From Arthrobacter burdickii (lineage in GTDB: Bacteria; Actinomycetota; Actinomycetes; Actinomycetales; Micrococcaceae), in the NCBI RefSeq assembly GCF_030433645.1, contig NZ_JAROCG010000001.1, positions 1 to 64,000 of the forward strand: a stretch of 64,000 nucleotides of DNA, written 5' to 3'. A program made the position numbers and the translations under genes. The first letter of the stretch is position 1. Every line of letters starts with the position of its first letter. The notes under the pieces were generated by a model. That model searched no databases. It saw only the letters and a program-made list of their open reading frames with translations, and was not told where the DNA came from. Of the stretch, positions 4,036-55,544 are shown piece by piece.

Positions 4036-5800
4036 GATCGGATCGCCTCCGGGAGGGGGATGACCGGCATCGCTTCCGTGTGGGGGGACGACGTGTTGGA
4101 ACTTGCGGAACGCACGCGCAGCCAGAAGAAGTCGTGGCTGCCGAGCGTCAGCGTGTTCTCGCCGTCCTCGGCGAAGGCCGGGAAGATCGCCCCGCCGAAG
4201 AGGTCCCGCAGGCCACGGCCGGCGAATTCCGGGAGGCGCATCTTCACTGCCACGGGGTGCTGCGACAGGTTGAAGATGCACAGGACGGACTCGGCGGGCT
4301 CGCCTTCGGCGTTGTCGGCGTCGACCTCGCGGAGGAACGCCAGGACGTGCTCCGAATCGACGGGGACGTTGCGGTAGGTGCCGAGCCCGAACGCCGGGTG
4401 GGCCTTGCGCACCGCGAGCATCTGCCGGACCCAGTGCAGGAGCGAACTCGACGTCGCCATCTGCGCTTCGACGTTCACGTGGTTGTAGTGGTACACGAGC
4501 GACTGGACGACCGGGAGGTACAGCTTGCCGGGGTCCACCGGGGAGAAGCCCGCGTTGCGGTCCGGGTTCCACTGCATCGGGGTCCGGGACGCGTCACGGT
4601 CCTCGAGCCAGATGTTGTCGCCCATACCGATCTCGTCGCCGTAGTAGAGGAACGGACTGCCGGGCAGGGACAGCAGCAGGGCATGGATCAGTTCCACTTC
4701 CGCCCGCGAATTGTCGAGCAGTGGGGACAGCCGTCGGCGGATGCCGACGTTCGCGCGCATGCGGGGATCCGGCGCGTACCAGCCGAGCATCGCCTCGCGC
4801 TCCTCGCTGGTGACCATCTCGAGTGTGAGCTCGTCGTGATTGCGGAGGAAGGTGCCCCACTGGGCGCCGGCCGGGATGTCGGGGGTCTCCTTCATCGTCT
4901 CGATGATGGGCGCAGCCTTCTGGTCGCGCAGCGCGTAGAAGAGCCTCGGCATGATCGGGAAGTGGAAGGACATGTGGCACTCGGGGCTGTCCTCGTCGCC
5001 GAAGTACTCGACGACCTCGTCCGGCATCTGGTTCGCCTCAGCGATGATGACCCGGCCCGGGTAGTTCTCGTCCACCATGGCGCGGAGCCGCTTGAGGAAC
5101 TCGTGCGTCTTCGGCAGGTTCTCGCAGTTGGTGCCCTCCTCCTCGAAAAGGTAGGGGATGGCGTCAGCGCGGAAGCCGTCGATGCCCTGGTCGAGCCAGA
5201 ACCTCACGACGTCGAAGATGGCCTCCTGCACCTTGGGGTTCTCGAAGTTGAGGTCCGGCTGGTGGCTGAAGAACCGGTGCCAGAAGAACTGGCGGCGCAC
5301 CGGGTCGAACGTCCAGTTCGATTCCTCGGTGTCCACGAAGATGATGCGCGCGTCCTGGTACTTCTCGTCCGTGTCGCTCCAGACGTAGAAGTCCCCGTAC
5401 GGGCCTTCGGGGTCCCTGCGGGACTCCTGGAACCAGTGGTGCTGCTCCGAGGTGTGGTTGAAGGGCAGGTCGATGATGACCCGCACGCCGCGCGCGTGGG
5501 CCTCGGCGACGAGCCGCTTGAAGTCGCCCAGGGAGCCGAACTCGTCCAGGACGTCGTAGTAGTCCGAGATGTCGTAGCCACCGTCACGCAGCGGGGACTT
5601 GAAGAACGGTGGCAGCCACAGGCAGTCGACGCCGAGCCACTGGAGGTAGTCCAGCTTGTCGATCAGGCCCGAGAGGTCGCCGGAGCCGTCCCCGTTCGCG
5701 TCGGCGAATCCGCGGACCAGGACCTCGTAGAAGACCGCCTTGCGGTACCAGTGGGGGTCGTGGGCCAGTCCGGGTGCGTTGAGCTGGAAGGGGTTGGGCA

Positions 5801-21139: not shown

Positions 21140-21886
21140 CTAGTGCTTGCCCTGGTTCGCCACGGCCTCGATGGCGGCGGCTGCCGCGTCGGCGTCGAGG
21201 TAGGTGCCGCCGGCCTTGACGGGCTTGAGGTCCTCGTCGAGCTCGTAGACGAGCGGGATGCCGGTGGGGATGTTCAGCGCCGCGATGTCCTTGTCGCTGA
21301 TCCCGTCGAGGTGCTTCACGAGGGCGCGGAGGGAGTTGCCGTGGGCGGCGATCAGCACGGTCCTGCCGGCCCTGATGTCCGCGGTGATGTCCGACTCCCA
21401 GTACGGCAGGAAGCGCTCGAGGACGTCCTTGAGGCACTCGGTGCGCGGGACGTCGTCGCCGAGGTCCGCATAGCGGGGGTCATTGGCCTGCGAGTACTCG
21501 CTGGCGTCGTCGAGGGGCGGCGGCGGGGTGTCGTAGGACCGGCGCCATTCCATGAACTGCTGCTCGCCGTACTCCGCGAGGGTCTGGGCCTTGTCCTTGC
21601 CCTGCAGCGCGCCGTAGTGGCGCTCGTTGAGGCGCCAGTTGCGCTTGACGTCGATCCAGCTGCGGTCGGCGGCTTCCAGCGCGAGGTTCGCGGTGATGAT
21701 GGCGCGCTTCTGGCGGGACGTGTAGACGATGTCGGGAAGGATGCCGGCCTCGGTCAGGAGCTGGCCGCCGCGGGTGGCTTCCTCGCGGCCCTTCTCCGTG
21801 AGGGCGACGTCCACCCAGCCGGTGAAGAGGTTCTTCTCGTTCCATTCGCTCTGCCCGTGGCGCAGCAGGATCAGTGTGTAGGTCAT
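21140..21886 (-). CDS. gpmA: 2,3-bisphosphoglycerate-dependent phosphoglycerate mutase
   Basis: 248 residues. Interconverts 3- and 2-phosphoglycerate in glycolysis and gluconeogenesis. Catalytic phospho-His in [12 protein letters not shown], the [11 protein letters not shown] loop, and second His in [13 protein letters not shown] are present. ATG 21886 is preceded on the minus strand by AGGAG with a short spacing; an in-frame extension to 21922 is less likely. Linkage to phoU and senX3-regX3 is common in Actinobacteria. Confidence 0.94.
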
Positions 21887-22013
21887 GGCTCCTAGTCTGC
21901 CGTATCGCGCTGCGCCGGTCATTCCGGCCCGCCCCTGGTCCGCGACTGTTAAGCGGTGCCGTCGAGCGCTCCGCTCGAACAGTGCTATCGGCAGTGCGGT
22001 CGGGCGAGTGCCC

Positions 22014-22019
22014 TAGCCT
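22014..22019 (+). promoter_or_regulatory. -10 element for leaderless methyltransferase gene
   Basis: TAGCCT, six bases before the GTG at 22026. Confidence 0.45.
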
Positions 22020-22025
22020 TGATGG

Positions 22026-22826
22026 GTGCCCCCGCGTCCCCGTCCCCCGAAGCCGCTCGGGACCATCACCCGCGGCACCACGAACCCCAACCGGCTCCGC
22101 CGCGTGGACCGCTGGCTCGCCGGCCCCCAGGGGCACCGGCTCCGTCGAGCCGCCGCTCCGCTCGTGGTCGACCTCGGGTACGGCGCGGCTCCGGTCACCG
22201 CCGTCGAACTGTTCACGCGCCTGCGCTCCGTGCGGGACGACGTCGAGGTGGTCGGGATCGAGATCGACCCGGCACGCGTAGCCGCGGCCGAACCTCTCGC
22301 GCGGCCCGGGCTGACGTTCCGGCAGGGCGGCTTCGAGCTTCCGCTGGATGGCCGGCTGCCGGTCTTCGTGCGCGCGTTCAACGTGCTGCGGCAGTACGGC
22401 GAGGACGAGTACGCGGCGTACTGGGACGAGGTCCGCTCCCGGCTTGCACCCGACGGGCTGTTCATCGACGGGACGTGCGACGAGATCGGGCGGCGGTCCA
22501 CGTGGGCTGCCCTCGATACCGGCGGGCCTGTGTCGCTGAGCATCTCGCTGCGGTTCGGGGCGTTCACCCTCCCCTCCGACGTGGCGGAACGGCTGCCCAA
22601 GGCACTGATCCACCGCAACGTGGAGGGCGAACCGGTCCACGCCTACCTTCGGGCCCTGGACCGGGCCTGGCTCGATGCCGCGGCCCTCGCGTCCTTCGGC
22701 CATCGGCAGCGGTGGGTGGCGATGTGCGGTGCGCTCAAGGCGGATGGCTGGCCGCTGCTGGACGGCGCATCACGCTGGCGCCTCGGGGAGATCACCGTGG
22801 CGTGGGAGGCCGTGAGGCCCGGCTAG
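22026..22826 (+). CDS. Class I SAM-dependent methyltransferase, substrate unknown
   Basis: 266 residues. The SAM-binding glycine motif is visible as VVDLGYGAAPVTAVEL (about residues 47-62) with an acidic motif II, VVGIEIDP. The basic Pro/Arg-rich N-terminus includes GTITRGTTNPNRLRRVDRW, a sequence I associate with a family of actinobacterial methyltransferases without assigned substrate. GTG at 22026 follows TAGCCT by 6 bases. It ends four bases from the convergent DUF2516 gene with no terminator between. I do not know the substrate. Confidence 0.75.
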   Translation: MPPRPRPPKPLGTITRGTTNPNRLRRVDRWLAGPQGHRLRRAAAPLVVDLGYGAAPVTAVELFTRLRSVRDDVEVVGIEIDPARVAAAEPLARPGLTFRQGGFELPLDGRLPVFVRAFNVLRQYGEDEYAAYWDEVRSRLAPDGLFIDGTCDEIGRRSTWAALDTGGPVSLSISLRFGAFTLPSDVAERLPKALIHRNVEGEPVHAYLRALDRAWLDAAALASFGHRQRWVAMCGALKADGWPLLDGASRWRLGEITVAWEAVRPG

Positions 22827-35468: not shown

Positions 35469-36563
35469 ATGGCTTCCCGCCATCCGATGCCAGCGGCGCC
35501 GTCGATTCCTCCGACCGAAAGCCCGCAGTCCGTGCACCTCCTCCGCGACCTGGTGAGCATCACCCCCTCCGCCAACGACCACCACCCGGCACTCCGCTGC
35601 GCGATCGGAGTGGGCGTCCCATTGGTCGTGGTGCTGCTGATCGGACGCCTCGATCTCGCCGTCTTCGCCACGTTCGGGGCCTTCGCCGGCATCTACGGGC
35701 GGAACGAACCGCACCGCCAGCGCCTTGCCACCCAGATCCGCGGCGGCGGGCTCATGCTCGCCGTGATCCTGGCAGCCGCACTGGCCTCGCGCGGCGACGT
35801 CGGACCCTGGGGACTCGTCCTGCTCACCAGCGCGGTCGCCGGACTCGGGACCTTCGCGGCGGGACTGTTCCGCCTCCGGCCGGGAGGCTCCCTGTTCCAC
35901 ATCTTCGCTTTCGCGGCGATCGCCTCCGTCCCCCAGCAGCCACCGCTGCTGCAGGGACTCGGTACGGCGGTCGCCACCGTCGCGTTCGCGGTGCTCCTCG
36001 GGCAGGCGGGCGCACTCTGGCCACGCCACCGCACGGGCTGGCATCGCCCGGCGGCGGACCGGCCCACGGCGCGGCACCTGGCAGGACTGGCCCGGGAGTC
36101 GGCCCTGTACGTCGTCGCAGCCCTGCTAGCCGGCAGCGCGGCCACGGCGCTCGGGATCGGCCACACCTACTGGGCGATGGTCGCCGCGACCGTGCCCCTT
36201 GTGGGACAGACGGCACGGGCGCGCACCAACCGGGGGCTGCAGCGGATTCTCGGCACGGTCGCCGGGCTCGTCCTGACGGCGCTGATCCTCCTGCCGGGGC
36301 TGGCTGCGTGGCAGTTCGTCCTCGTCATCGCCGTCGCCCAGTTCGCGGCCGAGATGTTCATCCTGCGGCAGTACGCCCTCGCGCAGGCGTTCGTCACGCC
36401 GCTCGCCCTGGTCAGCACGGAACTGGCGCACCCGAGCGATCCGGCTGTGCTCCTCGCGGATCGTGCCGTCGAGACCCTCATCGGGGCCGTGGTCGGCATC
36501 GCGCTCGTGCTGGCCCTGCATCTCCGGCAGCGTGCCGTGCAGCTTTCCGCGCGCGGCGCCTAG
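35469..36563 (+). CDS. FUSC-family inner membrane protein
   Basis: 364 residues with two blocks of membrane helices (about 47-165 and 205-335), each starting with a short cytoplasmic helix; the second block contains GIGHTYWAMVAATVPL and RTNRGLQRILGTVAGL, the pattern of the fusaric-acid-resistance (FUSC) half of aromatic-acid/efflux permeases. It lacks the large soluble insertion of YhcP-type members, so the substrate is open. ATG 35469 lies six bases after TAGGGT. Its stop codon shares four bases (CTAG) with the stop of the convergent PucR-type gene. Confidence 0.8.
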   Translation: MASRHPMPAAPSIPPTESPQSVHLLRDLVSITPSANDHHPALRCAIGVGVPLVVVLLIGRLDLAVFATFGAFAGIYGRNEPHRQRLATQIRGGGLMLAVILAAALASRGDVGPWGLVLLTSAVAGLGTFAAGLFRLRPGGSLFHIFAFAAIASVPQQPPLLQGLGTAVATVAFAVLLGQAGALWPRHRTGWHRPAADRPTARHLAGLARESALYVVAALLAGSAATALGIGHTYWAMVAATVPLVGQTARARTNRGLQRILGTVAGLVLTALILLPGLAAWQFVLVIAVAQFAAEMFILRQYALAQAFVTPLALVSTELAHPSDPAVLLADRAVETLIGAVVGIALVLALHLRQRAVQLSARGA

Positions 36564-38176
36564 TCCGTCGCCGGGGCGGGGTTCACCTCGTCCAGGTACT
36601 GGAGGGCGATCAGCAGTTCAGCCCGGACCTGCGCGCTCCCGAGGTCCATGCCGAGCAGTTCGGCCAGCACGCCGATCTGCCGCCGTACGCTGTTGCGGTG
36701 CAGCTGCAGGCGCTTCGCAGCTCCGTCCCAGCTGCCGTTCTCATGGAGCCAGCCGTTCAGGACTGCGAGCAGGGGGTCGCGGCGGTGCGGCTTCAAGGAG
36801 AGGACCGGGTGCAGGAGGCGCTCTGCCAGGGCGGTTCCTGCCTCACGGCCCAGGAGCCCTGCCACCGACCACGTCACGTCCTCCGCCCGGACACTCCTTC
36901 CGCTGGACTGCACACGCGCGCGCAGGGAGCTGACCCGCTGGTAGGCGGCAGCCAGGCCGGAGAGCTCCGTCCCCTCGCCCACGACGAGGCGCCAGCCCAT
37001 CCTCTCGACATCGGCCAGCAGCGACGAGTCCACCCGAAGCCGCGTGATCGCGGTGAAACCGTAGTCCGTGATCTCCACCAGCTTGGTGTCGAACAGGCGC
37101 CGCCATTGCAGCAGCTCGCGGATGGGGCCGTCACCCGGAAGACCATCGGCGGGATCTACCCTGATGCCCTGTACCACCCGCATCGGCGCGGACCGTGTCG
37201 AGGACAGGCTTTGGGCGAGCAGGTCCTTGAGCACGTTCAGGTGCCGGGTATCACCGTTCGTGAGGCTGTCGGGATGCAGCAGGACGGCTGTCGCCAGCTG
37301 GCTCGGGGCCAAAGAGCCGCTGGTCCTCTGCCGCACCAGGAGCTCCAGCAGGCCGATCGCCGCCTGGACCACGCTGTTCTGGGCGGCAGTCAGGGGTGCG
37401 TCACAGCCGAGGATCAGGGCACCGAGGTTGGCGTCCTTGGTGCTCCGCAACGGGTGTCCGTACACCAGCGCGGAACCCGGCTGGTCGAAGCCGTCCATCT
37501 CCACACGGGGTCCGCTACCCGAGAACAGCCGCTCCACCAGAGGCGCCAGCAGTGCAGGGTCGATCTCCGGGGTGTTCCCGCGTGCGCGGATCCGCCCGTC
37601 CGTCCCTACCAGGAGGGCCCACACGGGCACCTTCTGCACCAGCGCACCGAGGAGTTCGTGTTCCGGCCTCGGGGAGAGCACCGCCCGCATGAGCTGCCGG
37701 TTGGTGTCCGCCAGCTGACGGAACGCCCGGGCGTTCTCGGATTCGAGCAGCTGCGAGAACTCGAGTCCGATGGCCGCGAACGGCAGTGTCGAGGGGACTT
37801 CGAACAAGGTCAGGTTCCGGCGTCGGCAGGCGCTCACCAGCACCTCCGGAACCGCGTCGAAGTAGGGCTGGATCCCGAAACCGAGGGCCGGGACGCCGGC
37901 GTCCACCAGGCGCCGGACGTAGGCGTCCACGCCGGCTTCCGACCCGCCGTCCCCCAGGAAAGGCAACCCGCAGGTCAGCAGGAACTCGCCCTCGGGAAGG
38001 TACGGCGTCGGATCCTCGAGTTCGCTCGGCTCGACCCATCGGAGCAGCTCCTGGCCGCTGCCGCCATCGTGGAGCAGTCTCAACTCGGGCCGCAGCTGCT
38101 CGACGAACTGCTCGAGCGTGACGAAACCCGGGCGAGCCGGAGCGGGAACCTGCTCGTCCGGTGTAATACGTCCCAT
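36560..38176 (-). CDS. PucR-type transcriptional regulator of the lysine-catabolic cluster
   Basis: 538 residues. N-terminal PucR/allantoin-type sensor domain (about 25-150, VTLEQFVEQLRPELRLL), a middle GGDEF-like/GAF region, and a C-terminal helix-turn-helix of the PucR type (GAAKRLQLHRNSVRRQIGVLAELLG, split). Such regulators respond to small nitrogen compounds. It is divergent from the permease-davB genes with a 78-base intergenic region that contains the inverted repeat GTGAG-N6-CTCAC, so it is the likely local regulator. ATG at 38176; an unused open extension runs upstream. Confidence 0.88.
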   Translation of the reverse strand: MGRITPDEQVPAPARPGFVTLEQFVEQLRPELRLLHDGGSGQELLRWVEPSELEDPTPYLPEGEFLLTCGLPFLGDGGSEAGVDAYVRRLVDAGVPALGFGIQPYFDAVPEVLVSACRRRNLTLFEVPSTLPFAAIGLEFSQLLESENARAFRQLADTNRQLMRAVLSPRPEHELLGALVQKVPVWALLVGTDGRIRARGNTPEIDPALLAPLVERLFSGSGPRVEMDGFDQPGSALVYGHPLRSTKDANLGALILGCDAPLTAAQNSVVQAAIGLLELLVRQRTSGSLAPSQLATAVLLHPDSLTNGDTRHLNVLKDLLAQSLSSTRSAPMRVVQGIRVDPADGLPGDGPIRELLQWRRLFDTKLVEITDYGFTAITRLRVDSSLLADVERMGWRLVVGEGTELSGLAAAYQRVSSLRARVQSSGRSVRAEDVTWSVAGLLGREAGTALAERLLHPVLSLKPHRRDPLLAVLNGWLHENGSWDGAAKRLQLHRNSVRRQIGVLAELLGMDLGSAQVRAELLIALQYLDEVNPAPATD

Positions 38177-38254: not shown

Positions 38255-39790
38255 GTGAAGGGACGTCCACAGGTGACTGTGCCTATGAACGCTGAGAAGA
38301 CAACCATCCCGGGCGAAGGCCGGCCGGGCCTGGGTGCCCAGCTGCTCCGGCGTAAACCTCTCGACCAGATGGTCGGCGAAGCCGGAAGTGATGGCGGAGG
38401 TGCGCCGCTCGTGCGCAGCTTCGGGGTTCTCCAGCTGACCATGATCAGCGTCGGTGCCACGCTGGGCACGGGCATCCTCGTGATCCTGGGCGAGTCGGTT
38501 CCGCTGGCAGGTCCGGCGATCTGGATATCCTTCGTCCTCGCCGGCCTGGCCGCGCTGTTCTCCGCCGCTTCCTACGCCGAGATGGCCGGGCTGGTGCCCG
38601 TCGCCGGCTCCAGCTACTCGTACTCCTACGCGACCATGGGTGAAGGGATGGCCTGGATCTGCGGCTGGTGCCTGGTGCTCGAGTACGCGGTGTCCGTCGC
38701 CGCCGTCGCGGTCGGCGCGGGCCAGTACGTCAACGAGACGCTGGCCGGGTTCGGCCAGTTCCTGCCCGCTGCACTGTCCCAGCCCCCGGGCGACGGCGGC
38801 GTCGTGAACATCCCCGCGATGGCGATCGTGCTGCTCTCCATGGTGCTCCTGGTCCGGGGAGCGCGTGAAAGCGCCCGGATCAACACGGCCATCGTCGTCA
38901 TCAAGGTGTGCATCCTGCTGTTCTTCTGCGCGGTGGCCTTCACCGCCTTCGACGCCGGCAATTTCGAGCCGCTCCTGCCCATGGGTGCGGCCGGCGTCTC
39001 GGCCGCGGCCTCCCGCGTGTTCTTCTCCTACATCGGCTTCGATGCCGCCTCCACTGCCGGCGAGGAAGCCCGGAACCCCAAGCGCGATCTCCCCCGTGCC
39101 ATCCTGCTGTCCATGCTCATCGTGACCAGCGTGTACGTCCTCGTCGCCGTCGCCGCCATCGGGGCGCGCCCGTGGGGCTGGTTCGACGGAACGGAAGCGG
39201 CCCTGGTGCAGATCCTGCAGGAGCTCACGGGCCGGCCCTGGATCGCCCTCGTCTTCTCCGCCGGTGCCGTGCTCGCGATCGCGAGCATCGTGTTGACCGT
39301 CCTGTACGGCCAGACGCGCATCCTCCTGTCGATGTCCCGCGACGGACTCGTTCCCCCCGTCTTCGGGCGGGTCTCGCGCCGGACGGGGACACCCGTCGCC
39401 GGAACGCTCATCGTCGGCACCGTCGTCGCCGTGACCGCGGGACTGGTCCCGCTCGGAGAGCTTGCCGACGCGACCAGCATCGGCACCCTCTTCGCGTTCG
39501 CGCTGGTCAACGTCGCGGTGGTCTACCTGCGCCGCAACCGGCCGGACCTCCCGCGCAGCTTCCGCGTCCCGTTCTACCCCGTCACACCCGTACTGGGAAC
39601 GCTGATGTGCGCCTACCTCATGGCCAACCTGGGCGCCGCCACGTGGCTCGTCTTCGGAGTGTGGATGCTCGTGGGCATCGCCATCTACGTCGGCTACGGG
39701 CGCCGGCACTCCAAGGTCGCGGCCCTCAGCGAACTGGAGTACCGCACACTGACCGCCAAGCCCTCGACCATCAAGGAGACGCACTCGTGA
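38255..39790 (+). CDS. APC-superfamily amino-acid permease, probable lysine importer
   Basis: 511 residues from GTG 38255 (GGAAAG eight bases upstream; ATG 38285 is an alternative). About 12 membrane helices; the first carries the APC glycine motif ISVGATLGTGILVI and helix 6 region SRVFFSYIGFDAASTAGEEARNPKRDLPRA, typical of cationic amino-acid transporters. Its stop overlaps the next start (GTGA), so it is translated with the lysine monooxygenase gene. Lysine as substrate is inferred from that link. Confidence 0.88.
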   Translation: MKGRPQVTVPMNAEKTTIPGEGRPGLGAQLLRRKPLDQMVGEAGSDGGGAPLVRSFGVLQLTMISVGATLGTGILVILGESVPLAGPAIWISFVLAGLAALFSAASYAEMAGLVPVAGSSYSYSYATMGEGMAWICGWCLVLEYAVSVAAVAVGAGQYVNETLAGFGQFLPAALSQPPGDGGVVNIPAMAIVLLSMVLLVRGARESARINTAIVVIKVCILLFFCAVAFTAFDAGNFEPLLPMGAAGVSAAASRVFFSYIGFDAASTAGEEARNPKRDLPRAILLSMLIVTSVYVLVAVAAIGARPWGWFDGTEAALVQILQELTGRPWIALVFSAGAVLAIASIVLTVLYGQTRILLSMSRDGLVPPVFGRVSRRTGTPVAGTLIVGTVVAVTAGLVPLGELADATSIGTLFAFALVNVAVVYLRRNRPDLPRSFRVPFYPVTPVLGTLMCAYLMANLGAATWLVFGVWMLVGIAIYVGYGRRHSKVAALSELEYRTLTAKPSTIKETHS

Positions 39791-41487
39791 CCACCGCCAC
39801 CGAACTCCCGGCCGACGATCTCGCGGCCGACCGCCAGGCAGCCTCCCCGATCACCATGCTGAACCCGGACTTCCCGTTCAGCTACGACCACTACCTCGCC
39901 CACCCCGATGGCCTGGGGTCGGTCCCGGAGGAACTGCTCGGGACCGAGGTCGCGGTCATCGGCGCCGGACTCTCCGGCCTCGTCACGGCCTACGAGCTGA
40001 TGAAGCTGGGGCTCCGGCCGGTGGTCTACGAGGCGGACCAGATCGGCGGACGCCTCCGGACAGCGGCCTTCCCCGCGGCGCCCGGCGTCGTGGCGGACCT
40101 GGGGGGCATGCGCTTCCCCGTGTCCGGCAGGGCCTTCTACCACTACGTGGACCTGCTGGGAGTGGAGACCGAGGCCTTCCCCAACCCGCTCTCGTCGGCC
40201 TCCTCCAGCACCGTGATCGAACTGGCCGGTAAGAAGCACTACGCCACCACACCGGAGGACCTTCCTCCCTTCTTCCAGGAGGTGGCCGACGCCTGGAAGG
40301 CAGCAATCAACGACGGCGCCAGATTCACCGAGATGCAGGATGCCATCCGCTCGCGGGACACGGGCCGGATCAAGGAACTCTGGAACGACCTGCTGCCGCG
40401 AATGGACGAGCAGACCTTCTACGGCTTCATCGCCGCGAGCAAGGCCTTCAAGGAGGCAGGGTTCGCCCATCGGGAGGCTTTCGGGCAGGTGGGCTTCGGC
40501 ACCGGAGGCTGGGACACGGACTTCCCCAACTCCATCCTGGAGATCCTCCGGGTGGTCTACACGGACGCGGACGACCAGCACCGCCTCATCCGCGGAGGAG
40601 CGCAGCGCCTGCCGGAGGCCCTGTGGCACCACGCGCCGTCGGGGATGAGGCACTGGCCGGAGGGGACCTCCCTCGCGTCCCTGCACTCGGGTTCACCCCA
40701 CGGCGCCGTGGGCAGGATCAGCCGGGACCCTGACGGCGACCTGCGCATCCGCGAACGGTGGGGTCGCGAAGCCAGCTATCCGGCCGTCGTGACCACGTGC
40801 CAGTCCTGGCTGCTGTCCACCCGGATCCACACCCAGGAAGCGCTGTTCCCTGCCGACCTCTGGACCGCGATGGAACGGTCGCACTACATGCAGTCGTCGA
40901 AGACCTTCGTGATGGTGGACCGGCCCTTCTGGAAGGACATCGATCCGGAGACGGGCCAGGAAGTCCTGTCCATGACCCTGACCGACCGGCTGAACCGCGC
41001 CACCTACCTGCTGGACAACGGACCGGACAAGCCCGCGGTCATCCTGCTGTCCTACACCTGGAACGACGACGCGCTGAAGTGGCTGGCCCTGGACGCGGAC
41101 GAGCGCGTGGAACTCATGCTGCACTCGCTGGAGCAGATCTACCCGGGCGTGGACATCGCCAGCCACATCGTGGGACAGCCCATCACCGTGTCATGGGAGG
41201 CGGATCCGAACTTCATGGGCGCCTTCAAGGCGAACCTGCCGGGCCACTACCGGTACCAGCAGCGGCTGTTCACGCACTTCAAGCAGGACGCCCTCCCGGA
41301 GGGCCAGCGTGGCATCTTCCTGGCCGGTGACGACATCTCCTTCACCGCCGGCTGGGCGGAAGGCGCCGTGACGACGGGCCTGAATGCCGTGTGGGGCGTG
41401 GTGAACCACCTGGGCGGATCGTCCGCACCGGGCAATCCAGGTCCCGGTGACCTGCTCGACGCGATCGGGCCGATCAGCCTCGACTGA
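39787..41487 (+). CDS. davB: L-lysine 2-monooxygenase (DavB-like flavoprotein)
   Basis: 566 residues, flavin amine-oxidase superfamily. It has the dinucleotide-binding VIGAGLSGLVTAYE, the Arg motif GGRLRTAAF, GGMRFPVSGRAFYHYVD, the central GQVGFGTGGWDTDFPNS and the C-terminal FAD motif FLAGDDISFTAGWAEGAV. The length and these segments match my memory of Pseudomonas putida DavB, which converts L-lysine to 5-aminovaleramide with O2; tryptophan 2-monooxygenase is the nearest alternative. GTG at 39787 overlaps the permease stop. The DavA-like amidase gene lies convergent just downstream, which supports the lysine assignment. Confidence 0.88.
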   Translation: MTTATELPADDLAADRQAASPITMLNPDFPFSYDHYLAHPDGLGSVPEELLGTEVAVIGAGLSGLVTAYELMKLGLRPVVYEADQIGGRLRTAAFPAAPGVVADLGGMRFPVSGRAFYHYVDLLGVETEAFPNPLSSASSSTVIELAGKKHYATTPEDLPPFFQEVADAWKAAINDGARFTEMQDAIRSRDTGRIKELWNDLLPRMDEQTFYGFIAASKAFKEAGFAHREAFGQVGFGTGGWDTDFPNSILEILRVVYTDADDQHRLIRGGAQRLPEALWHHAPSGMRHWPEGTSLASLHSGSPHGAVGRISRDPDGDLRIRERWGREASYPAVVTTCQSWLLSTRIHTQEALFPADLWTAMERSHYMQSSKTFVMVDRPFWKDIDPETGQEVLSMTLTDRLNRATYLLDNGPDKPAVILLSYTWNDDALKWLALDADERVELMLHSLEQIYPGVDIASHIVGQPITVSWEADPNFMGAFKANLPGHYRYQQRLFTHFKQDALPEGQRGIFLAGDDISFTAGWAEGAVTTGLNAVWGVVNHLGGSSAPGNPGPGDLLDAIGPISLD

Positions 41488-41538
41488 CCTCGTCATCAGC
41501 GCGCCGGAAACACCCACCCCAGAACGAAAGGCTCCCCC

Positions 41539-41670
41539 ATGCTGTCGTCCGTCCTCCCCGCTCCCGCAGCTAGCCCCTCACCGGCACCGTCCGCCGACGA
41601 CGGCACTCTGCCGGCGGATGCGCCCTGTGCGCCCCGCTGCGAGTACTGCTTCGGCCCGGAGACGGACTAG
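41539..41670 (+). CDS. 43-residue Cys-rich peptide, CX3CX2C motif, unknown function
   Basis: An open frame too short for usual gene callers, 51 bases after davB. ATG 41539 is preceded by AAAGG with seven-base spacing, better than many starts here. The N-terminal half is Ala/Pro/Ser-rich with a short hydrophobic start; the C-terminal part holds three Cys in CAPRCEYCFGPETD (Cys 30, 34, 37). The spacing CX3CX2C is that of radical-SAM iron-sulfur motifs, but the rest of that fold is missing, so a small metal-binding peptide, a modified-peptide precursor or an unstable leader are other options. A strong hairpin follows at 41716. Codon use is like its neighbours. I do not recognise it. Confidence 0.55.
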   Translation: MLSSVLPAPAASPSPAPSADDGTLPADAPCAPRCEYCFGPETD

Positions 41671-41715
41671 GCCGGCTCCCCCGCCGGCCCGGGATGTAGG
41701 GGCATCCCGACGAGG

Positions 41716-41753
41716 AACGACAAGGGGCCTTCCGCGGAAGGCCCCTTGTCGTT
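41716..41753. terminator. Bidirectional terminator between the davB operon and davA
   Basis: Perfect 38-base palindrome whose last base is also the last base of the davA stop codon. Serves both convergent units. Confidence 0.85.
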
Positions 41754-42586
41754 CAGGCGCTGTTCTCCCAGGTCCTGTACACCTCGGGGCGGCGCTCCCG
41801 GAGGTAGGGGACGTCGTCGCGCGCGGCGCGCACAGCGTCCGGGGCGATCTCGGCGAACAGGAGGGTGGGGGCGTGTCCGGCCGCGGCGAGCAGGGAACCA
41901 TCCGGCCCGGCGACGACGCTTCCGCCCTCGAAGTCGTAGACGTCCTCGCGGCCGCTGTGGTTCGCGTACGCGACGACGAGCTGGCTCTCCAGTGCACGGG
42001 ACCGGATGATGACCTGCGGCACGGACTCGAACCCGGCGGACAGGGCGGTCGGTACCAGCAGCAGCTCCGCGCCCCGCGTGGCTGCGGCCCGCACCGCCTC
42101 GGGGAACTCGACGTCGTAGCAGATCAGCAGGGACGTCCGGACTCCGTTGAACTCGACGACGCCGGGAGGATCCTGGGCGGGGACGAACGCCGCACGCTCC
42201 TCCGCGCCGAAGAGGTGGACCTTCCCGTAGTGGAGGACCGGAACCCCGTCGGCGTCCAGGAGGGTGGCCGTGATCTGCCATCCATTGCCGTCGGAGCTGC
42301 CGTCGGAGGTGTCCCCTAGCTCCTCCGGCGTGGCGGGAAGGCTGTACACCAGGCCGATGCCGTGCCGCCGTGCGATCCCGGCAAGGCGCTGCCGAACCCC
42401 CGGCAGCACCGCGGGATCCAGTTCGGCGGCGAGGCGCTGGGGTGCATACCCGACCGGAAAGAGCTCCGGCGTCAGGAGGATGTCCGCCCCTGCCTGCGAG
42501 GCACGCCCGGCTGCCTCGTCGATGGTCCGGAGATTCGCCTCGACGTTCAGGACTTCGGCATGGGCCTGCAGGACGGACAGCAGCAT
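41753..42586 (-). CDS. davA: Nitrilase-family amidase (5-aminovaleramidase, DavA-like)
   Basis: 277 residues from ATG 42586 (AGGTGG six bases upstream on the minus strand; a GTG at 42595 is the alternative). The catalytic triad is visible: Glu in LLTPELFPVGY, Lys in LHYGKVHLFG and Cys in SLLICYDVEFPE. The sequence around LICYDVEFPEAVR and the C-terminal DVPYLRERRPEVYR is close to DavA, which hydrolyses 5-aminovaleramide to 5-aminovalerate. Convergent position next to the davB-like gene supports this. A general carbon-nitrogen hydrolase role cannot be excluded. Confidence 0.82.
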   Translation of the reverse strand: MLLSVLQAHAEVLNVEANLRTIDEAAGRASQAGADILLTPELFPVGYAPQRLAAELDPAVLPGVRQRLAGIARRHGIGLVYSLPATPEELGDTSDGSSDGNGWQITATLLDADGVPVLHYGKVHLFGAEERAAFVPAQDPPGVVEFNGVRTSLLICYDVEFPEAVRAAATRGAELLLVPTALSAGFESVPQVIIRSRALESQLVVAYANHSGREDVYDFEGGSVVAGPDGSLLAAAGHAPTLLFAEIAPDAVRAARDDVPYLRERRPEVYRTWENSA

Positions 42587-42735
42587 CGGTACCACCTCGG
42601 TTGTGACGGCCCCGGAAGAGTCCGGGGTGCTCTCCCCAGTTTAATCGGCGCGGCATCCGCTGACCGGGTCGTTTCGTCCCACGGGCAGGAGCCTCCGGGC
42701 ACATCGCCCGCGGTGGCTGCACGCGCGCGGTGCTC

Positions 42736-44224: not shown

Positions 44225-47200
44225 ATGGTTTATTCGTCATGGAAGGGAGCGCTCGGTGCGGCGCTGTCGGTGGGGCTGATCGCCTCACCGATGATCGCAC
44301 TGCCGGCCAACGCCGTGGAGACACCACCGGCAACGGCATCTGCCGCAGCCACCGGCGTCATCATCAACGAGGCCTATCTGTCGGGTGGCTCCGCGGGGAC
44401 GCCGTTCACCAACAAGTACGTGGAGCTCTACAACCCGACCGACGCACCGGTGAGCCTCGACGGCTGGTCGCTGCAGTACCGTGCGCCGGGGTCCCCCGCG
44501 ACACCCGCTGCGACCGCGCTTCGGGGCACCATCCCGGCCAAGGGCTATTTCCTGATCCAGGGTGGCTCCAACGGCACCGCCGGGTCAGCTCTGCCCACCC
44601 CTGACCTCGCGACGGGCCTCAACCCCGGCGCCGCCGGCGGCGTCCTCGTGCTGTCCGATCAGGCCGCGACCGTCGGTGCCCTCCGCATCGGCAGCATCGT
44701 CGGCACGCCCGGCGTCGTCGATGCCCTGGGCTATGGCACGGCCAACGCGTTCGAAGGCACGGCCGCACCGACGCCCGGCGCCGGAAGCACGAAGTCCGCC
44801 AACCGGACCGGCTTCGCTGACACGGACAACAACGGTGCCGACTTCACGCTGCAGGACACGACGCCGATGAACAGCGCGTCGACCGGAGGCTCCACGCCGA
44901 CGCCGACGCCGACGCCGACTCCGACCCCGACGGTTCCTCCCACGCCGGGCGCGGTCGTCCCCATCCGTGACATCCAGGGCACCGGGACCGCCACGCCGCT
45001 CTCCGGCCAGACGGTCACCACGCGCGGCAAGGTCACCGCCGCATACCCCACGGGCGGATTCGCCGGCTTCTACCTCCAGACCGCGGGCAGTTCGGCAGCA
45101 GCCGATCAGACCGCGTCGGACGCCATCTTCGTCTTCTCCCCCGACACGGTCGCGTCCGTGGCCGTGGGTGACTACGTCGAAGTCACCGGTACCGCCGGGG
45201 AGTTCTTCAACCTGACGCAGCTCACCGTCCCCGCCGGCGGCACCACGAAGCTCACCGAGGCAGCCGAGGAGCCCAAGGCCTCCAGCATCGCCCTGCCCGC
45301 CACCGACGCCGCACGTGAAGCCGTCGAGGGCATGCTCTTCCAGCCCTCCGGCGCCTACACGGTCGCCGACAACTACACGCTCAACCAGTACGGCGAGGTC
45401 ACCCTCGCGGCCGGCACCGAGCGCCTCCTCCAGCCCACCGACGTCGCACGTCCGGGCACCCCCGAGAATGCAGCGGTCATCGCCGACAACGCAGCCCGGA
45501 GCATCCGGCTCGACGACGGCGCCACGACCAACTTCTTCACCCAGGCCAACCGCGGCAAGGTACTCCCGTACCTCACGGCGTCCCAGCCGGTCCGCGTGGG
45601 CTACAGCGCTGCGTTCACCTCTCCGGTGGTCCTCGACTACCGCAACAGCGCGTGGAAGTTCCAGCCGCTCTCTGAACTGAACGGCGCGACCCCCGACGCA
45701 CAGCCCGTGCAGTTCGCCGGCGAGCGCCCGGCCGCGCCCCAGCCGGTCGGCGGCAACCTGAAGATCGCCTCATTCAACGTGCTGAACTACTTCCCCACCA
45801 CCGGTGAGGAGCTCACCGGGTGCAAGTACTTCACGGACCGCGCCGGCAACCCGATCACCATCGACGGCGGCTGCGACTCCCGCGGCGCCGCGAACAAGGA
45901 GAACCTCGAGCGCCAGGAAGCGAAGATCGTCGCCGCGATCAATGGCCTCGGCGCCGACGTCGTCACCCTCATGGAGGTCGAGAACTCCGCCAAGTTCGGC
46001 AAGGACCGCGACTTCGCCCTCGCCACCCTCGTCGAGGCGCTGAACGAGAAGGCCCCCGGCACCTGGGACTACGTCCGCTCCCCCGCGGCCGTCCCCGCCC
46101 TCGCCGACGAGGACTTCATCCGCACCGCGCTGATCTACAAGAAGGCCGTCGCTGAACCCGTCGGCGAGTCGGTCATCCTCAACGACAACGTGGTGTTCTC
46201 GAATGCCCGCAAGCCCCTCGCACAGGCCTTCAAACCGGTCGGCGGCAGCGACGCGGAGACCTTCCTCACGATCGTCAACCACCTCAAGTCCAAGGGCTCC
46301 GGCCCGAGCTCCGGCGGCAACGCCGACACCGGTGACGGCCAGGGCGCCTGGAACGCCGCGCGCGTCGCCCAGGCACAGGCCCTCGTGGGCTTCGCCGACT
46401 CCATGAAGGCGGCGGCGAAGACCGACAAGGTCTTCCTGACCGGCGACTTCAACGCCTACACGATGGAGGACCCCATGCAGGTCCTCTACGACGCCGGGTA
46501 TGTCGACCAGGGCAAGAAGGACGGCAAGTACTCCTACGTCTTCTCGGGCCTCAGCGGATCCCTCGACCACGTCCTCGCGTCACCCGCGGCGGACGCCACC
46601 GTCACGGGCGTGGACACGTGGAACATCAACTCGGCGGAGTCGGTCGCCCTCGAGTACAGCCGCTTCAACAACAACGTCACCGACTACTACGTAGCCGACC
46701 CGTATCGCGCCAGCGACCACGACCCCGTGATCGTCGGCATGAACCTCGCACCGGCCGACACGACCGCGGAGCTCAACCTGCTCAACATCAACGATTTCCA
46801 CGGTCGGATCGACGCCAACACGGTCCGGTTCGCGGGCACGGTCGAGAAGCTGCGCGCCGAGTTCGGCGAGGACAAGACGGCCTTCCTCTCGGCCGGTGAC
46901 AACATCGGTGCGTCGCTGTTCGCCTCCGCCCTGCAGGACGACAAGCCGACCCTCGATGTCCTCGACGCGCTGGACCTCCGGGCATCGGCCGTGGGCAACC
47001 ACGAGTTCGACAGGGGCTTCGGGGACCTGACCGGACGCGTCGCCGACACGGCGGACTTCCCCTATCTCGGTGCGAACGTCTACGCCAAGGGCACCACCGA
47101 GCCCGCACTGGATGAATACTCGATCATCACCGTCGACGGCGTCGATGTCGCAGTGATCGGCGTCGTCACCGAGGAGACGGCGACGCTCGTCAGTCCCGGC

Positions 47201-48766
47201 GGCATCGCGAACGTCGACTTCGGCGACCCCGTGGAAGCGGTCAACCGCGTCGCGGAGGAGATCGAGGATCAGGGCCTCGCCGATGTCATCGTCGCCGAGT
47301 ACCACGAGGGCGCCGGTGACGGCGTCGTCGAGGGCGCGACGCTCGAGCAGGAGATTGCCGCCGGCGGTTCGTTCGCCCGGATCGTCACGGAGACGACCCC
47401 GCTGGTGGACGCGATCTTCACGGGCCACACGCACAAGCAGTACGCCTGGGACGCACCCGTTCCGGGAGCTTCCGGCGAGACCCGCCCGATCCTGCAGACC
47501 GGTTCCTACGGTGAGTTCATCGGCCAGATCACGCTGACCGTCGACACCGCCACCGGAGACGTGCTGTCCTACACGGCCCGCAACGTCGCCCGGACCACCG
47601 ACGCGGACGCCGCGCTCGTGGGCGCCTTCCCGAGGGTCGCCGAGGTCAAGAGCATCGTCGACGCGGCCATCGCGCAGGCGTCGGTCATCGGCAGCCAGCC
47701 CGTCGGGTCGGTCACCAGGGACATCACGACGGCCTTCACCGGTACCACGCGTGATGACCGCACCTCGGAATCGACGCTGGGCAATCTCGTGGCCGACTCC
47801 CTGCGGGCCAGCCTCTCCCCCGCCGAGCGCGGCGGAGCACAGATCGGCGTCGTCAACCCGGGTGGCCTCCGCAACGAGCTCTACTTCGCTCCCGACGGCG
47901 TCGTGACCTTCGCCGAGGCCAATGCGGTGCTGCCGTTCGTGAACGACCTCTGGACGACCACCCTGACCGGTGCGGAGTTCAAGGCGATGCTCGAGCAGCA
48001 GTGGCAGCCGGACGGGAGCTCGCGGGCCTTCCTCGCCCTCGGCCTCTCGGACAACGTGAGTGTCACCTACGATCCGGCCCTCGCGCGCGGCTCGAGGATC
48101 ACGTCCGTCCTGATCGACGGCGCACCCCTCGATCCCGCCAAGGATTACCGGATCGGCACGTTCAGCTTCCTGGCCCAGGGTGGCGACAACTTCACGGTGT
48201 TCCGTGAAGGAGCCGACACCCGTGAGTCCGGCCTGGTGGACCGTGACGCCTGGATCGACTACATCCGGGCCAACAGCCCGCTGTCGCCGTCCTTCGACCG
48301 TCGCAGCGTCCAGGTGCAGGGCGCTCCGACCACCGTGAAGGCAGGCGCCGCCGTGTCGTTCACCGTGTCGAAGCTGGACCTGACGTCGCTCGGCAGCCCG
48401 GCAAACACCACGCTGGCTGCCGGCTTCGTGGCCGCCGATGGCACCACGACGCCGCTGGGTTCCGTCCCCGTCACCGGCGGGAGTGCCACGGTGGACCTCA
48501 CCGTTCCGGCCACTGCGAGCGGGCAGGGACGCATCGTCCTGACGGCGGCACCCAGCGGGACGACGGTGACCCTTCCGGTCGCGGTCGAAGCGGTTCCTCC
48601 GGTCGAACCGCCCAAGCCGGGCAAGCCGGAGAAGCCCGGCAAGCCCATCAAGCCGGGCAAGCCTGCCTGCTCCGAGCCGGCCCTGCCGTCCGAGGGCGCG
48701 AACAGCGGCAGCTGGGCGAGCTACCGTGCGCACCTGGCGAACTACCACCGCTGCCTCGAGGGCTAG
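44225..48766 (+). CDS. Secreted ExeM/NucH-type nuclease fused to 5'-nucleotidase
   Basis: 1513 residues. Signal peptide (cut about ANAVE, residue 30), lamin-tail domain (about 45-170), a Thr-Pro linker (about 220-240), OB-like domain, endonuclease/exonuclease/phosphatase domain (about 510-840: IASFNVLNYF, catalytic Glu in VTLMEVENS, LTGDFNAY, ASDHDPVI), then a complete UshA-type 5'-nucleotidase (about 848-1340: NINDFHGRID, SAGDNIG, GNHEFDRG, GHTHKQY, NPGGLRNEL) and a bacterial Ig-like domain. The tail has four KPGKP units and a Cys-containing end, without an LPXTG sorting signal. Role: degrade extracellular DNA and strip phosphate from the nucleotides. Monocistronic, with its own terminator. 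Confidence 0.92.
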   Translation: MVYSSWKGALGAALSVGLIASPMIALPANAVETPPATASAAATGVIINEAYLSGGSAGTPFTNKYVELYNPTDAPVSLDGWSLQYRAPGSPATPAATALRGTIPAKGYFLIQGGSNGTAGSALPTPDLATGLNPGAAGGVLVLSDQAATVGALRIGSIVGTPGVVDALGYGTANAFEGTAAPTPGAGSTKSANRTGFADTDNNGADFTLQDTTPMNSASTGGSTPTPTPTPTPTPTVPPTPGAVVPIRDIQGTGTATPLSGQTVTTRGKVTAAYPTGGFAGFYLQTAGSSAAADQTASDAIFVFSPDTVASVAVGDYVEVTGTAGEFFNLTQLTVPAGGTTKLTEAAEEPKASSIALPATDAAREAVEGMLFQPSGAYTVADNYTLNQYGEVTLAAGTERLLQPTDVARPGTPENAAVIADNAARSIRLDDGATTNFFTQANRGKVLPYLTASQPVRVGYSAAFTSPVVLDYRNSAWKFQPLSELNGATPDAQPVQFAGERPAAPQPVGGNLKIASFNVLNYFPTTGEELTGCKYFTDRAGNPITIDGGCDSRGAANKENLERQEAKIVAAINGLGADVVTLMEVENSAKFGKDRDFALATLVEALNEKAPGTWDYVRSPAAVPALADEDFIRTALIYKKAVAEPVGESVILNDNVVFSNARKPLAQAFKPVGGSDAETFLTIVNHLKSKGSGPSSGGNADTGDGQGAWNAARVAQAQALVGFADSMKAAAKTDKVFLTGDFNAYTMEDPMQVLYDAGYVDQGKKDGKYSYVFSGLSGSLDHVLASPAADATVTGVDTWNINSAESVALEYSRFNNNVTDYYVADPYRASDHDPVIVGMNLAPADTTAELNLLNINDFHGRIDANTVRFAGTVEKLRAEFGEDKTAFLSAGDNIGASLFASALQDDKPTLDVLDALDLRASAVGNHEFDRGFGDLTGRVADTADFPYLGANVYAKGTTEPALDEYSIITVDGVDVAVIGVVTEETATLVSPGGIANVDFGDPVEAVNRVAEEIEDQGLADVIVAEYHEGAGDGVVEGATLEQEIAAGGSFARIVTETTPLVDAIFTGHTHKQYAWDAPVPGASGETRPILQTGSYGEFIGQITLTVDTATGDVLSYTARNVARTTDADAALVGAFPRVAEVKSIVDAAIAQASVIGSQPVGSVTRDITTAFTGTTRDDRTSESTLGNLVADSLRASLSPAERGGAQIGVVNPGGLRNELYFAPDGVVTFAEANAVLPFVNDLWTTTLTGAEFKAMLEQQWQPDGSSRAFLALGLSDNVSVTYDPALARGSRITSVLIDGAPLDPAKDYRIGTFSFLAQGGDNFTVFREGADTRESGLVDRDAWIDYIRANSPLSPSFDRRSVQVQGAPTTVKAGAAVSFTVSKLDLTSLGSPANTTLAAGFVAADGTTTPLGSVPVTGGSATVDLTVPATASGQGRIVLTAAPSGTTVTLPVAVEAVPPVEPPKPGKPEKPGKPIKPGKPACSEPALPSEGANSGSWASYRAHLANYHRCLEG

Positions 48767-53429: not shown

Positions 53430-55544
53430 CTAGGCCTTCAGCGCCAGGGCGAACGGAAGCACACCCGAGGCTCCTGCAGCACGCAGGGCCCTGCCCGCCT
53501 CGGTGATGGTCCACCGGCTGTCGGCGAAGTCGTCCACGAGCAGGACGGGTCCGGGGTTCGCTGCGAACCAGGCGGCACCCTCCGGTGGAACGGCGAAATG
53601 GTCCCAGACGGAGGCGAGGCGGAACGCGCTGTTGCCTCCGGGCTGGCCCTGCGGGAAGCCGTGCGGCGTGGTCAACTGCCCCAGGTAGGGAATCCGCCCC
53701 ACCCCGGCGAGCGCCTGCGCCAGGGATCCGATGAGTTGCGGACGCCGCCGTGACGGCACGCTGACCACGGCGACGGGCCGCTCGTCCCAACCCCATTGCG
53801 CCAGGACCCGCACCACGGCCTCGACGATCGACGGATCCAGCGGCGCGTCGGGCGTCGCGTCCGCCATCAGCTCCCGGAGCCGGTTGCCCCAGCCGAGGTC
53901 CGTCAGGCGGGCCAGGGCCCGACCGGACAGGCTGACCTCGCCCGGCTTGAGCTTCCCCTTGAGGGGCACTCCCAGCTTGTCCATGCCGCTGGGCCACTGG
54001 CCGCGCGGCTCCAGCTCCACGCCCACCCTGCTGAGCGCCTGGCTCGCGGAATCGGACGCCTCGTGTGCCACCTCGTCGGAGTACCAGGGGCCCGCGCAGT
54101 TGTCGCAGCGACCGCAGGGCGTCGCGGCGGGATCGTCGAGGGACCTCGACAGGAATTCCATCCGGCAACCCGTCGTGTTCTCGTAATCCAGCATCGCCCG
54201 CTGTTCCACGACGCGGGCCTCGCTGATGCGGCGGTACCGCTCGGCGTCATAGGTCCAGGACGTACCGGTGCTCTCCCACCCGCCGGTGACCTTGCGGACC
54301 GCGCCGTCGACGTCGAGCACCTTGAGGAGGAGTTCGAGGGGCGAGCGCTTCAGGTTGACCCGTGTCTCGAGCGCCGGCGTGGACAGGACGACACCGGGTT
54401 CCAGTGCGTCGAGAACCCGCAGCGCGGCATCCTGGGAGGGCATCGACGCGGTGGCGAAGTACTCCCAGATGTCGCGGTCCTCCGCGCCGGGCAGCAGCAG
54501 GACATCGGCGTTCGGCGTCCCGCGGCCGGCGCGTCCCACCTGCTGGTAATAGGCGACCGGCGAGGACGGGGCGCCGAGGTGCACCACGAAGCCGAGGTCG
54601 GGCTTGTCGAAGCCCATGCCGAGGGCGCTCGTCGCCACGAGTGCCTTCACCTCGTTGTTCTTGAGGGCCGACTCCGCGGCCTCGCGATCTGCCGGGTCCG
54701 TGCGGCCCGTGTAGGCGCGGACGGCATGCCCGTTCTCGCGCAGCAGGCGCGCGGTGTCCTCCGCAGCTGAGACCGTCAGGGCGTAGATGATGCCGCTGCC
54801 CGGCAGGTCGGACAGGTGCGTCAGCAGCCAGGCGAGGCGTGACCGCGGACTCGGCAGGCGGAGCACCCCGAGCCGCAGCGATTTGCGCGCCAGCTCGCCG
54901 CGCAGCGTGAAGACGTCCGTGCCGCCTGCCCCGAGCTGCTCCTCGACGTCCTTCACCACGCGGGAGTTCGCCGTCGCCGTGGTCGCCAGCACGGGAACGC
55001 CCTGCGGGAGCCCCAGGATCAGTTCGCGCAGGCGCCGGTAGTCCGGCCGGAAGTCGTGTCCCCAGTCGGAGATGCAGTGCGCCTCGTCGATGACGAGCAG
55101 GCCGGTGCGCCGCATGAGTTCGGGCAGGTGCAGCTCCCGGAAGGACGGGTTGTTGAGGCGCTCGGGCGAGACGAGGAGGACATCCACCTCGTTGGCCTCC
55201 AGTTTGGCGGTGATGTCCTGCCACTCGGTCTGGTTGGCCGAGTTGATCGCTTCCGCGCGGACACCTGCCCGTGCCGCGGCGGCGACCTGGTCCCGCATGA
55301 GAGCCAGCAACGGCGAGACGATCAGTGTGGGACCCGCACCCCGCGCGCGCAGCAGCAGGCTCGCCACGAAGTACACGGCAGACTTGCCCCATCCCGTCCG
55401 CTGGACGACGAGCGCACGCCGCCCGCCCTCCACGAGGGCCTCGATGGCCTCGAACTGCCCCTCGTGGAACTGCGCGTCCGGTGACCCGACGAGGGTGTGC
55501 AGGAGGGAGGTTGCTTGCTCGTTGAGTGTGGTGGTCGGCGACAT
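53430..55544 (-). CDS. RecQ-family DNA helicase with C-terminal phosphoribosyltransferase-like domain
   Basis: 704 residues. Helicase motifs: I QRTGWGKSAVYF, II VIDEAHCISDWGHDFRPDY, III TTATAN, and VI QVGRAGRG; RecQ zinc cysteines TTGCRMEF and CGRCDNCAG. The last 220 residues are not RecQ-like: they contain VLLVDDFADSRWTITEAGRAL, which has the form of the PRPP-binding loop of ComF-type phosphoribosyltransferases. ATG 55544 lies six bases after GATACT, a near match to the leaderless pattern. The combination is seen in other actinobacteria; a DNA repair or competence role is possible, reaction unknown. Confidence 0.85.
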   Translation of the reverse strand: MSPTTTLNEQATSLLHTLVGSPDAQFHEGQFEAIEALVEGGRRALVVQRTGWGKSAVYFVASLLLRARGAGPTLIVSPLLALMRDQVAAAARAGVRAEAINSANQTEWQDITAKLEANEVDVLLVSPERLNNPSFRELHLPELMRRTGLLVIDEAHCISDWGHDFRPDYRRLRELILGLPQGVPVLATTATANSRVVKDVEEQLGAGGTDVFTLRGELARKSLRLGVLRLPSPRSRLAWLLTHLSDLPGSGIIYALTVSAAEDTARLLRENGHAVRAYTGRTDPADREAAESALKNNEVKALVATSALGMGFDKPDLGFVVHLGAPSSPVAYYQQVGRAGRGTPNADVLLLPGAEDRDIWEYFATASMPSQDAALRVLDALEPGVVLSTPALETRVNLKRSPLELLLKVLDVDGAVRKVTGGWESTGTSWTYDAERYRRISEARVVEQRAMLDYENTTGCRMEFLSRSLDDPAATPCGRCDNCAGPWYSDEVAHEASDSASQALSRVGVELEPRGQWPSGMDKLGVPLKGKLKPGEVSLSGRALARLTDLGWGNRLRELMADATPDAPLDPSIVEAVVRVLAQWGWDERPVAVVSVPSRRRPQLIGSLAQALAGVGRIPYLGQLTTPHGFPQGQPGGNSAFRLASVWDHFAVPPEGAAWFAANPGPVLLVDDFADSRWTITEAGRALRAAGASGVLPFALALKA

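Follow-up and report, generated by a model that had tools for sequence, protein, structure and literature searches.

A conserved C-terminal Cys/GPETD tail in an apparently undescribed family of micro-proteins of Micrococcaceae

Introduction

Radical SAM enzymes bind their iron-sulfur cluster through a loop of the form C-x3-C-x-aromatic-C. Short peptides with this spacing have also been made artificially, and a 2019 study by Galambas, to go by its title, reportedly described synthetic Cx3Cx2C [4Fe-4S] peptide maquettes with a redox-active cluster. A zinc knuckle of the DnaJ type has the form C-x-x-C-x-G-x-G. Tiny genes are known for the precursors of mycofactocin and PQQ, in which the C-terminal part is important. 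In usual RiPP precursors the leader is conserved and the core is variable, and in some arrest peptides conservation extends as far as the stop codon behind a mostly free N-terminus.

The gene described here lies in the window, which is the whole stretch of 64,000 nucleotides that was analysed. The features at the locus were as follows.

36560-38149 (-), PucR-type regulator (PF07905, PF13556), divergent from the permease gene, start provisional
38285-39790 (+), APC-type amino acid permease (AA_permease_2), upstream of davB
39787-41487 (+), davB-like L-lysine monooxygenase / L-amino acid oxidase (Amino_oxidase PF01593; PDB 3we0, E 6.8e-241)
41527-41531 (+), Shine-Dalgarno-like AAAGG, 7-base spacing to the ATG, read directly
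41539-41670 (+), gene for a 43-aa micro-protein with the GPETD tail, seen from translation and homologues, stop TAG at 41668-41670
41626-41667 (+), conserved C-terminal tail CAPRCEYCFGPETD, residues 30-43, with near-invariant columns and a pooled pN/pS of 0.17
41670-41754 (+), three consecutive hairpins at 41670-41689, 41690-41709 and 41715-41754, the last with an 18-bp stem
41753-42595 (-), carbon-nitrogen hydrolase/amidase, convergent (CN_hydrolase; amidase matches)

Results

The gene and its surroundings in the window

The frame at 41539-41670 translated to MLSSVLPAPAASPSPAPSADDGTLPADAPCAPRCEYCFGPETD, 43 aa long with Cys at 30, 34 and 37. It lies between davB and the convergent carbon-nitrogen hydrolase gene, 51 bases after the davB stop. 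The frame, the ribosome binding site and the cysteine pattern had been claimed in an earlier note on this DNA, and all three were reproduced from the sequence. The GTG start of davB overlaps the permease stop. No name was obtained for davB from NCBIfam, and davB was a fair name because its sole PDB match at E <= 1e-60 was 3we0, an L-amino acid oxidase/monooxygenase. The amidase gene is possibly davA, judging from the pathway. Further along, at 44225-48766 (+), the window encodes a 1513-aa protein with a lamin-tail domain, an endonuclease/phosphatase and a 5'-nucleotidase.

The RNA 3' of the peptide stop folded with -67.1 kcal/mol (z -5.5), and the three-hairpin region is a probable terminator between the convergent genes. 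The same note had called it a strong terminator. This rests on the 18-bp stem, since a search of the region with a rule that requires a T-run called none.

Neither Pfam, searched to E <= 1, nor NCBIfam gave a match to the window peptide. AlphaFold2 with the peptide and six relatives gave no ordered structure (pLDDT 60.5, pTM 0.14). The window had three occurrences of C-x3-C-x2-C at 15 residues or less from a stop, against a Markov mean of 0.3, and the other two frames, 21826-22281 (+) and 54821-54952 (-), do not have the GPETD end. The strict tail C-x-[YF]-C-x-GPETD-stop was found once in the window. In 707 kb of family loci, which had been chosen for carrying the tail, it was found 76 times against 0 in five first-order Markov resamples.

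Anatomy of the tail and selection

Comparison of 78 loci showed that the shared part was the last fourteen residues and that the N-termini differed widely between loci. The conserved unit was C-x3-C-x-[YF]-C-x-G-P-E-T-D followed immediately by the stop. It is larger than the cysteine motif noted earlier, and its most conserved part, the GPETD end, had then gone unremarked. The stop came directly after the tail in 78 of 79 fetched matches; L106 alone reads on beyond the tail and was excluded from the tail counts. There were 62 distinct 14-mers among the 78 loci. Cys at -10, Cys at -7, Glu at -3 and Asp at -1 were each present in 78/78, as was Tyr or Phe at -8, and Gly, Pro and Thr were each present in 76/78. 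These last three residues each used all four codons across the tails, and the stops were TGA in 42, TAG in 20 and TAA in 16. The spacing between the first and second Cys was 3 residues in 58 loci, 4 in 9 and 5-9 in 7, and the first Cys was absent in 4. The resemblance to the radical SAM spacing, to which attention had been drawn before, therefore held for 58 of the 78 members and did not extend to the 16 with a gap of 4-9 residues or the 4 that lack the first Cys. The invariance of the tail was partly due to ascertainment because the loci were found with a model of that tail. Stop anchoring and codon degeneracy are not products of this route.

Pooled pN/pS was 0.17 in the last 14 codons and 0.66 in the codons before them, from 30 same-locus orthologue pairs that are not independent of one another. 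As read from these codons, selection acts on the protein and is strongest on the C-terminally anchored last ~14 residues, and the N-terminus is overall a weakly constrained carrier. Genome G264 carried a full-length orthologue that was 72% identical to the window peptide. Twelve of the 15 codons changed between the two were non-synonymous, all 12 within residues 6-31, and davB was 98% identical in the same comparison. The N-terminus looked neutral in the group of L122, L125, L126 and L139. It was conserved in the group of L103 and L112-L114 (pN 0.03-0.05, pS 0.11-0.27), which argues against a purely neutral carrier. No hydrophobic stretch was present in the members (top 19-residue mean 1.29).

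The two groups had features of their own. L122, L125, L126 and L139 (genus g6) carry a variant with two tail Cys only, HxWxxVEQxCPYC, near a glycosyltransferase-like gene. At L103, L112, L113 and L114, two GPETD peptides with related N-termini, MSxSTASTLI..., lie within 0.7-3.3 kb of each other, near an allantoinase gene.

These comparisons bear on whether a protein is made at all. A chance frame, or conservation at the DNA level without a protein, would suit a frame that is short and whose N-terminus is near neutral in several groups. It does not suit the degenerate codons, the pN/pS contrast of the tail, the stop anchoring or the zero matches in resampled DNA, and we consider it negligible. 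The earlier note had claimed a small coding gene with a Cys motif and had let this depend on a conserved frame and synonymous-site bias in relatives. Homologues were found in relatives with the frame and the Cys motif kept, and the bias, indicating selection on the codons, was present in the tail. On this basis, 41539-41670 looks like a real coding gene for a small protein.

Size and range of the family

A search at the protein level yielded matches at E <= 0.1 in 133 of 395 Micrococcaceae genomes, mostly at chance level, and the same tail ended the frame in 18 of 37 loci collected after this search. Profile A2, made of the last 22 residues, was searched against 390 genomes; matches at E <= 1 were obtained in 270, and many were weak. 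We kept 98 listed places with E <= 0.004 that reached the model end, one of which stops one position short. These places came from 72 genomes, 22 of which had two to four; genomes with the family thus carry one to four copies at different places at this cut-off. Seventy-nine of the 98 places were fetched with flanks, and one of the 19 left out lies inside a fetched locus. Starts were picked by a script, and the N-termini of some members are uncertain. By the chosen starts, the peptides were 16-129 aa long, with 71/79 at 16-72 aa. The shortest members, at 16-17 aa, barely exceed the tail, and wrong starts are probable for several of the longest, which overlap another gene. That this tail family occupies dozens of unrelated sites across Micrococcaceae genomes was well supported by the sequence comparison.

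In a phylum-wide sample of 396 genomes, 13 matched the tail profile at E <= 0.01. The match reached the tail end only in two Micrococcaceae, G000 (the window genome) and G009. The 11 matches outside Micrococcaceae ended at position 15-16, and nine of them lay in frames of 452-1216 aa; these long-frame matches were likely caused by radical SAM loops. The tail pattern occurred in 165 stretches in a scan covering 84,980 named species, and 6 were confirmed by tblastn among the matches listed, all in Arthrobacter. With short queries, which make such searches weak, plasmids gave no tail match, the one phage match, at E 9, lay outside the family, and no member was confirmed in viral contigs. A mobile or phage origin was set aside on these weak searches. 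The family is likely confined to Micrococcaceae, as judged from the samples.

NCBIfam searches over 16 members hit two families with one member each, at chance level (best E 0.079 and 0.26). Profile A3, built from 39 gap-free tails out of 53, found no sequence match in the PDB at E <= 10. In PMC, which omits most subscription journals, nothing relevant was found on GPETD or on small Cys proteins of Arthrobacter or Micrococcaceae; a prior report elsewhere is possible. These very small proteins of Arthrobacter-type bacteria are apparently an undescribed family. With ~14 strongly selected residues and members down to 16-17 aa by the chosen starts, they easily escape gene callers and profile libraries alike.

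The link to davB

The earlier note had proposed a helper of the flavin monooxygenase. Homologues of davB were found at 124 places in 120 of 365 family genomes, and the downstream region was read at 91 of these places, with 33 left out. In the genus of the window, davB was present at E <= 1e-60 in 3 of 38 genomes (G000, G264 and G354), and a GPETD peptide lay directly downstream of davB in 3/3. The peptide of G354 has an N-terminus unrelated to that of the window peptide and the same tail, ending CPYCCGPETD. In other genera, no peptide was found downstream of davB at the 88 places read, 4 of which, all among the last 60 davB ends collected, end early at contig ends. The link between davB and the peptide is real and local to one genus. 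The window davB was up to 91% identical to davB of another genus and yet was found in only 3/38 genomes of its own, which suggests horizontal transfer of davB.

An Fe-S or zinc helper that serves the lysine monooxygenase alone would account for the three loci of the window's genus. It would leave unexplained the 0/88 davB loci elsewhere, at identities up to 91%, and the fact that most members adjoin other genes. We regard this role as very improbable. A davB-specific partner was rejected, with the peptide at 3/91 of the davB loci read and these three in a single genus, and the helper proposal of the earlier note was not borne out, as the same tail adjoins many other genes.

Neighbours and orientation at other loci

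The neighbours included APC permeases, flavin amine oxidases, agmatine-deiminase-like genes, amidohydrolases, allantoinase, L-piperidine-6-carboxylate dehydrogenase, glucarate dehydratase-like genes, histidinol dehydrogenase, DctA, an ArsR-type regulator and a protein of the copper-linked YcnI family (DUF1775). By inspection, many were catabolic or transport genes, and many of the peptide genes lie directly behind such genes. The Pfam summary of neighbours and the cluster names come from a rough gene caller, and 25 of 110 families were listed. A partner specific to amidohydrolases was also considered and rejected. Fifty amidohydrolase places were found, and 2 of the 30 read with 1.5 kb flanks carried the peptide; the three peptide-bearing ones already known lay among the 20 outside these 30.

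A small conserved protein of ~70 aa was seen in L096, L102, L118, L119, L136, L140, L144 and L146, and its end overlaps the GPETD peptide by 4 bases. It lies at about 4150-4500 in oriented coordinates and is SH3-like by eye, with WDxVxxGDxVxLxxNG...RRLFHxxDGxxL; the three scanned gave no Pfam match over the cut-off. In L075, L080, L091, L100, L101 and L134, the start of this protein seemed, by eye, to be fused to the tail after an internal loss.

The strands of the upstream and downstream genes relative to the peptide were ++ in 28, +- in 22, -+ in 22 and -- in 4 of 76 loci, as called by a codon-scored gene caller and omitting two of the 78 loci that have no neighbour on one side. The next gene was on the opposite strand downstream in 26/76 and upstream in 26/76, which indicates no fixed placement. 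The tail is dispersed among loci without a fixed cis target.

This arrangement bears on a regulatory nascent peptide that would control a neighbouring gene in cis, either as a leader or by stalling at termination. Conserved residues that reach the stop codon, a mostly free N-terminus, one group lying 5' of a downstream operon and a co-directional next gene in 50/76 loci would all agree with such a role. However, the next gene is convergent in 26/76 loci, the window included, and a TAGAAT-like -10 was seen by eye after the peptide stop at several downstream genes. In addition, no Rfam family recurred at the peptides in 64 of 79 loci searched, where SAM-IV matches were confined to L085 and L082 and tRNA matches to L068 and L091. 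We consider cis action improbable. A simple leader role was rejected, as the next downstream gene is on the opposite strand in a third of loci. The SAM-IV riboswitches (L085:4099-4230 (-) and L082:8559-8671 (-), genus g8) lie about 0.3 and 4.0 kb from the peptides, and their proximity is probably coincidental.

Upstream regions of 44 representative loci were also searched. Within 250 bp upstream, no DtxR-like or Zur-like sites were found with few mismatches to the consensus, GlnR-like sites occurred in 7/44 loci against 6/44 in the control, and no DNA words were clearly above control. A shared promoter or metal-regulator motif was rejected, with none above control.

Maturation and recognition of the tail

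The peptide might instead be a RiPP-like precursor or the source of a peptide-derived cofactor, with the Cys/GPETD tail as its core and one maturase encoded elsewhere in the genome. The small size, the conserved C-terminus, the Cys with the C-terminal Asp and the several loci in some genomes speak for this. However, the usual pattern is reversed here, with pN/pS of 0.66 in the N-terminus and 0.17 in the tail, and one group keeps its N-terminus. The seven radical SAM proteins found in the window genome matched MoaA, MiaB, HemW, LipA, the Rv2578c family, RlmN and the spore-photoproduct-lyase family, and none of these families is known to mature RiPPs. MNIO (PF05114) and YcaO (PF02624) were each found in 0/5 peptide-bearing genomes, with positive controls. 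LanB-type proteins (PF04738) were also found in 0/5 genomes, where the control was equally silent and absence is not implied. We regard a RiPP-like origin as unlikely.

A C-terminal recognition tag would be a degron, or a competitor or adaptor for a protease or receptor, in which the Cys shape the tag and bind no metal. This would agree with C-terminal anchoring in 78/79 (L106 being the sole exception), the near-exact GPETD and the mostly free N-terminus. It has no known partner, and two to three Cys with an aromatic residue are not obviously required by a pure tag. We give it the same low standing as the RiPP-like origin.

Discussion

The reading that we prefer, at a probability of roughly 35%, is that of a free micro-protein acting in trans, whose cysteines would bind metal and whose GPETD end would dock on a shared partner. 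Two or three Cys, together with a nearby Asp, Glu or His, may hold metal, as an ion or in a small Fe-S cluster. The four tails of 78 without the first Cys and the 16 more with a spacing other than 3 count against the preferred reading, as do the missing DtxR-like and Zur-like sites in the 44 upstream regions and the lack of order in the AlphaFold2 prediction. GPETD-COOH may be read by one shared partner protein, and such a partner is proposed because five near-exact residues and the chain end exceed the needs of metal binding alone. Members near inducible operons would supply the tail when the operon is on. The window peptide would be made together with the lysine permease/monooxygenase operon, yet would be no enzyme subunit.

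A wider proposal, which we hold to be rather doubtful, is a private tail code of Micrococcaceae, in which unrelated micro-proteins share the Cys-cluster/GPETD-COOH end, one undiscovered partner and a common control. As part of this same doubtful proposal, the partner might be a receptor, a protease, a maturase or a metal-delivery protein, and the loci would be catabolic and transport loci. If the tail code were true, different catabolic and transport loci would be tied to a common control. The tail is found in several copies in some genomes, yet was confirmed in one bacterial family only in the samples searched. It offers a clear point of entry to a new partner or new chemistry and could be used as a synthetic bait.

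The family fails one tested feature each of a radical SAM enzyme, a RiPP precursor and a leader peptide. It resembles the radical SAM loop in the Cys spacing of 58/78 members and in the aromatic residue that precedes the last Cys in 78/78. However, the 43-aa window peptide has no enzyme domain, the spacing varies within the family and the GPETD-COOH end is near-invariant. Radical SAM enzymes are recognized by CX3CX2C within a (partial) TIM-barrel domain, and the window peptide does not have this combination. The synthetic maquettes are likewise short peptides with Cx3Cx2C spacing, but these are models and not a natural family. The C-x-[YF]-C-x-G core resembles the DnaJ zinc knuckle. In contrast to the knuckle, a single half-motif ends the chain, P and E replace x and G, and the window peptide has no Pfam match. 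As with the precursors of mycofactocin and PQQ, the genes are tiny and the C-terminal part is important; unlike them, the genes are dispersed beside unrelated genes, and no maturase was found among the classes testable in the genomes tried. The novelty lies in the family and its layout, and the mechanism may prove to be of a known kind.
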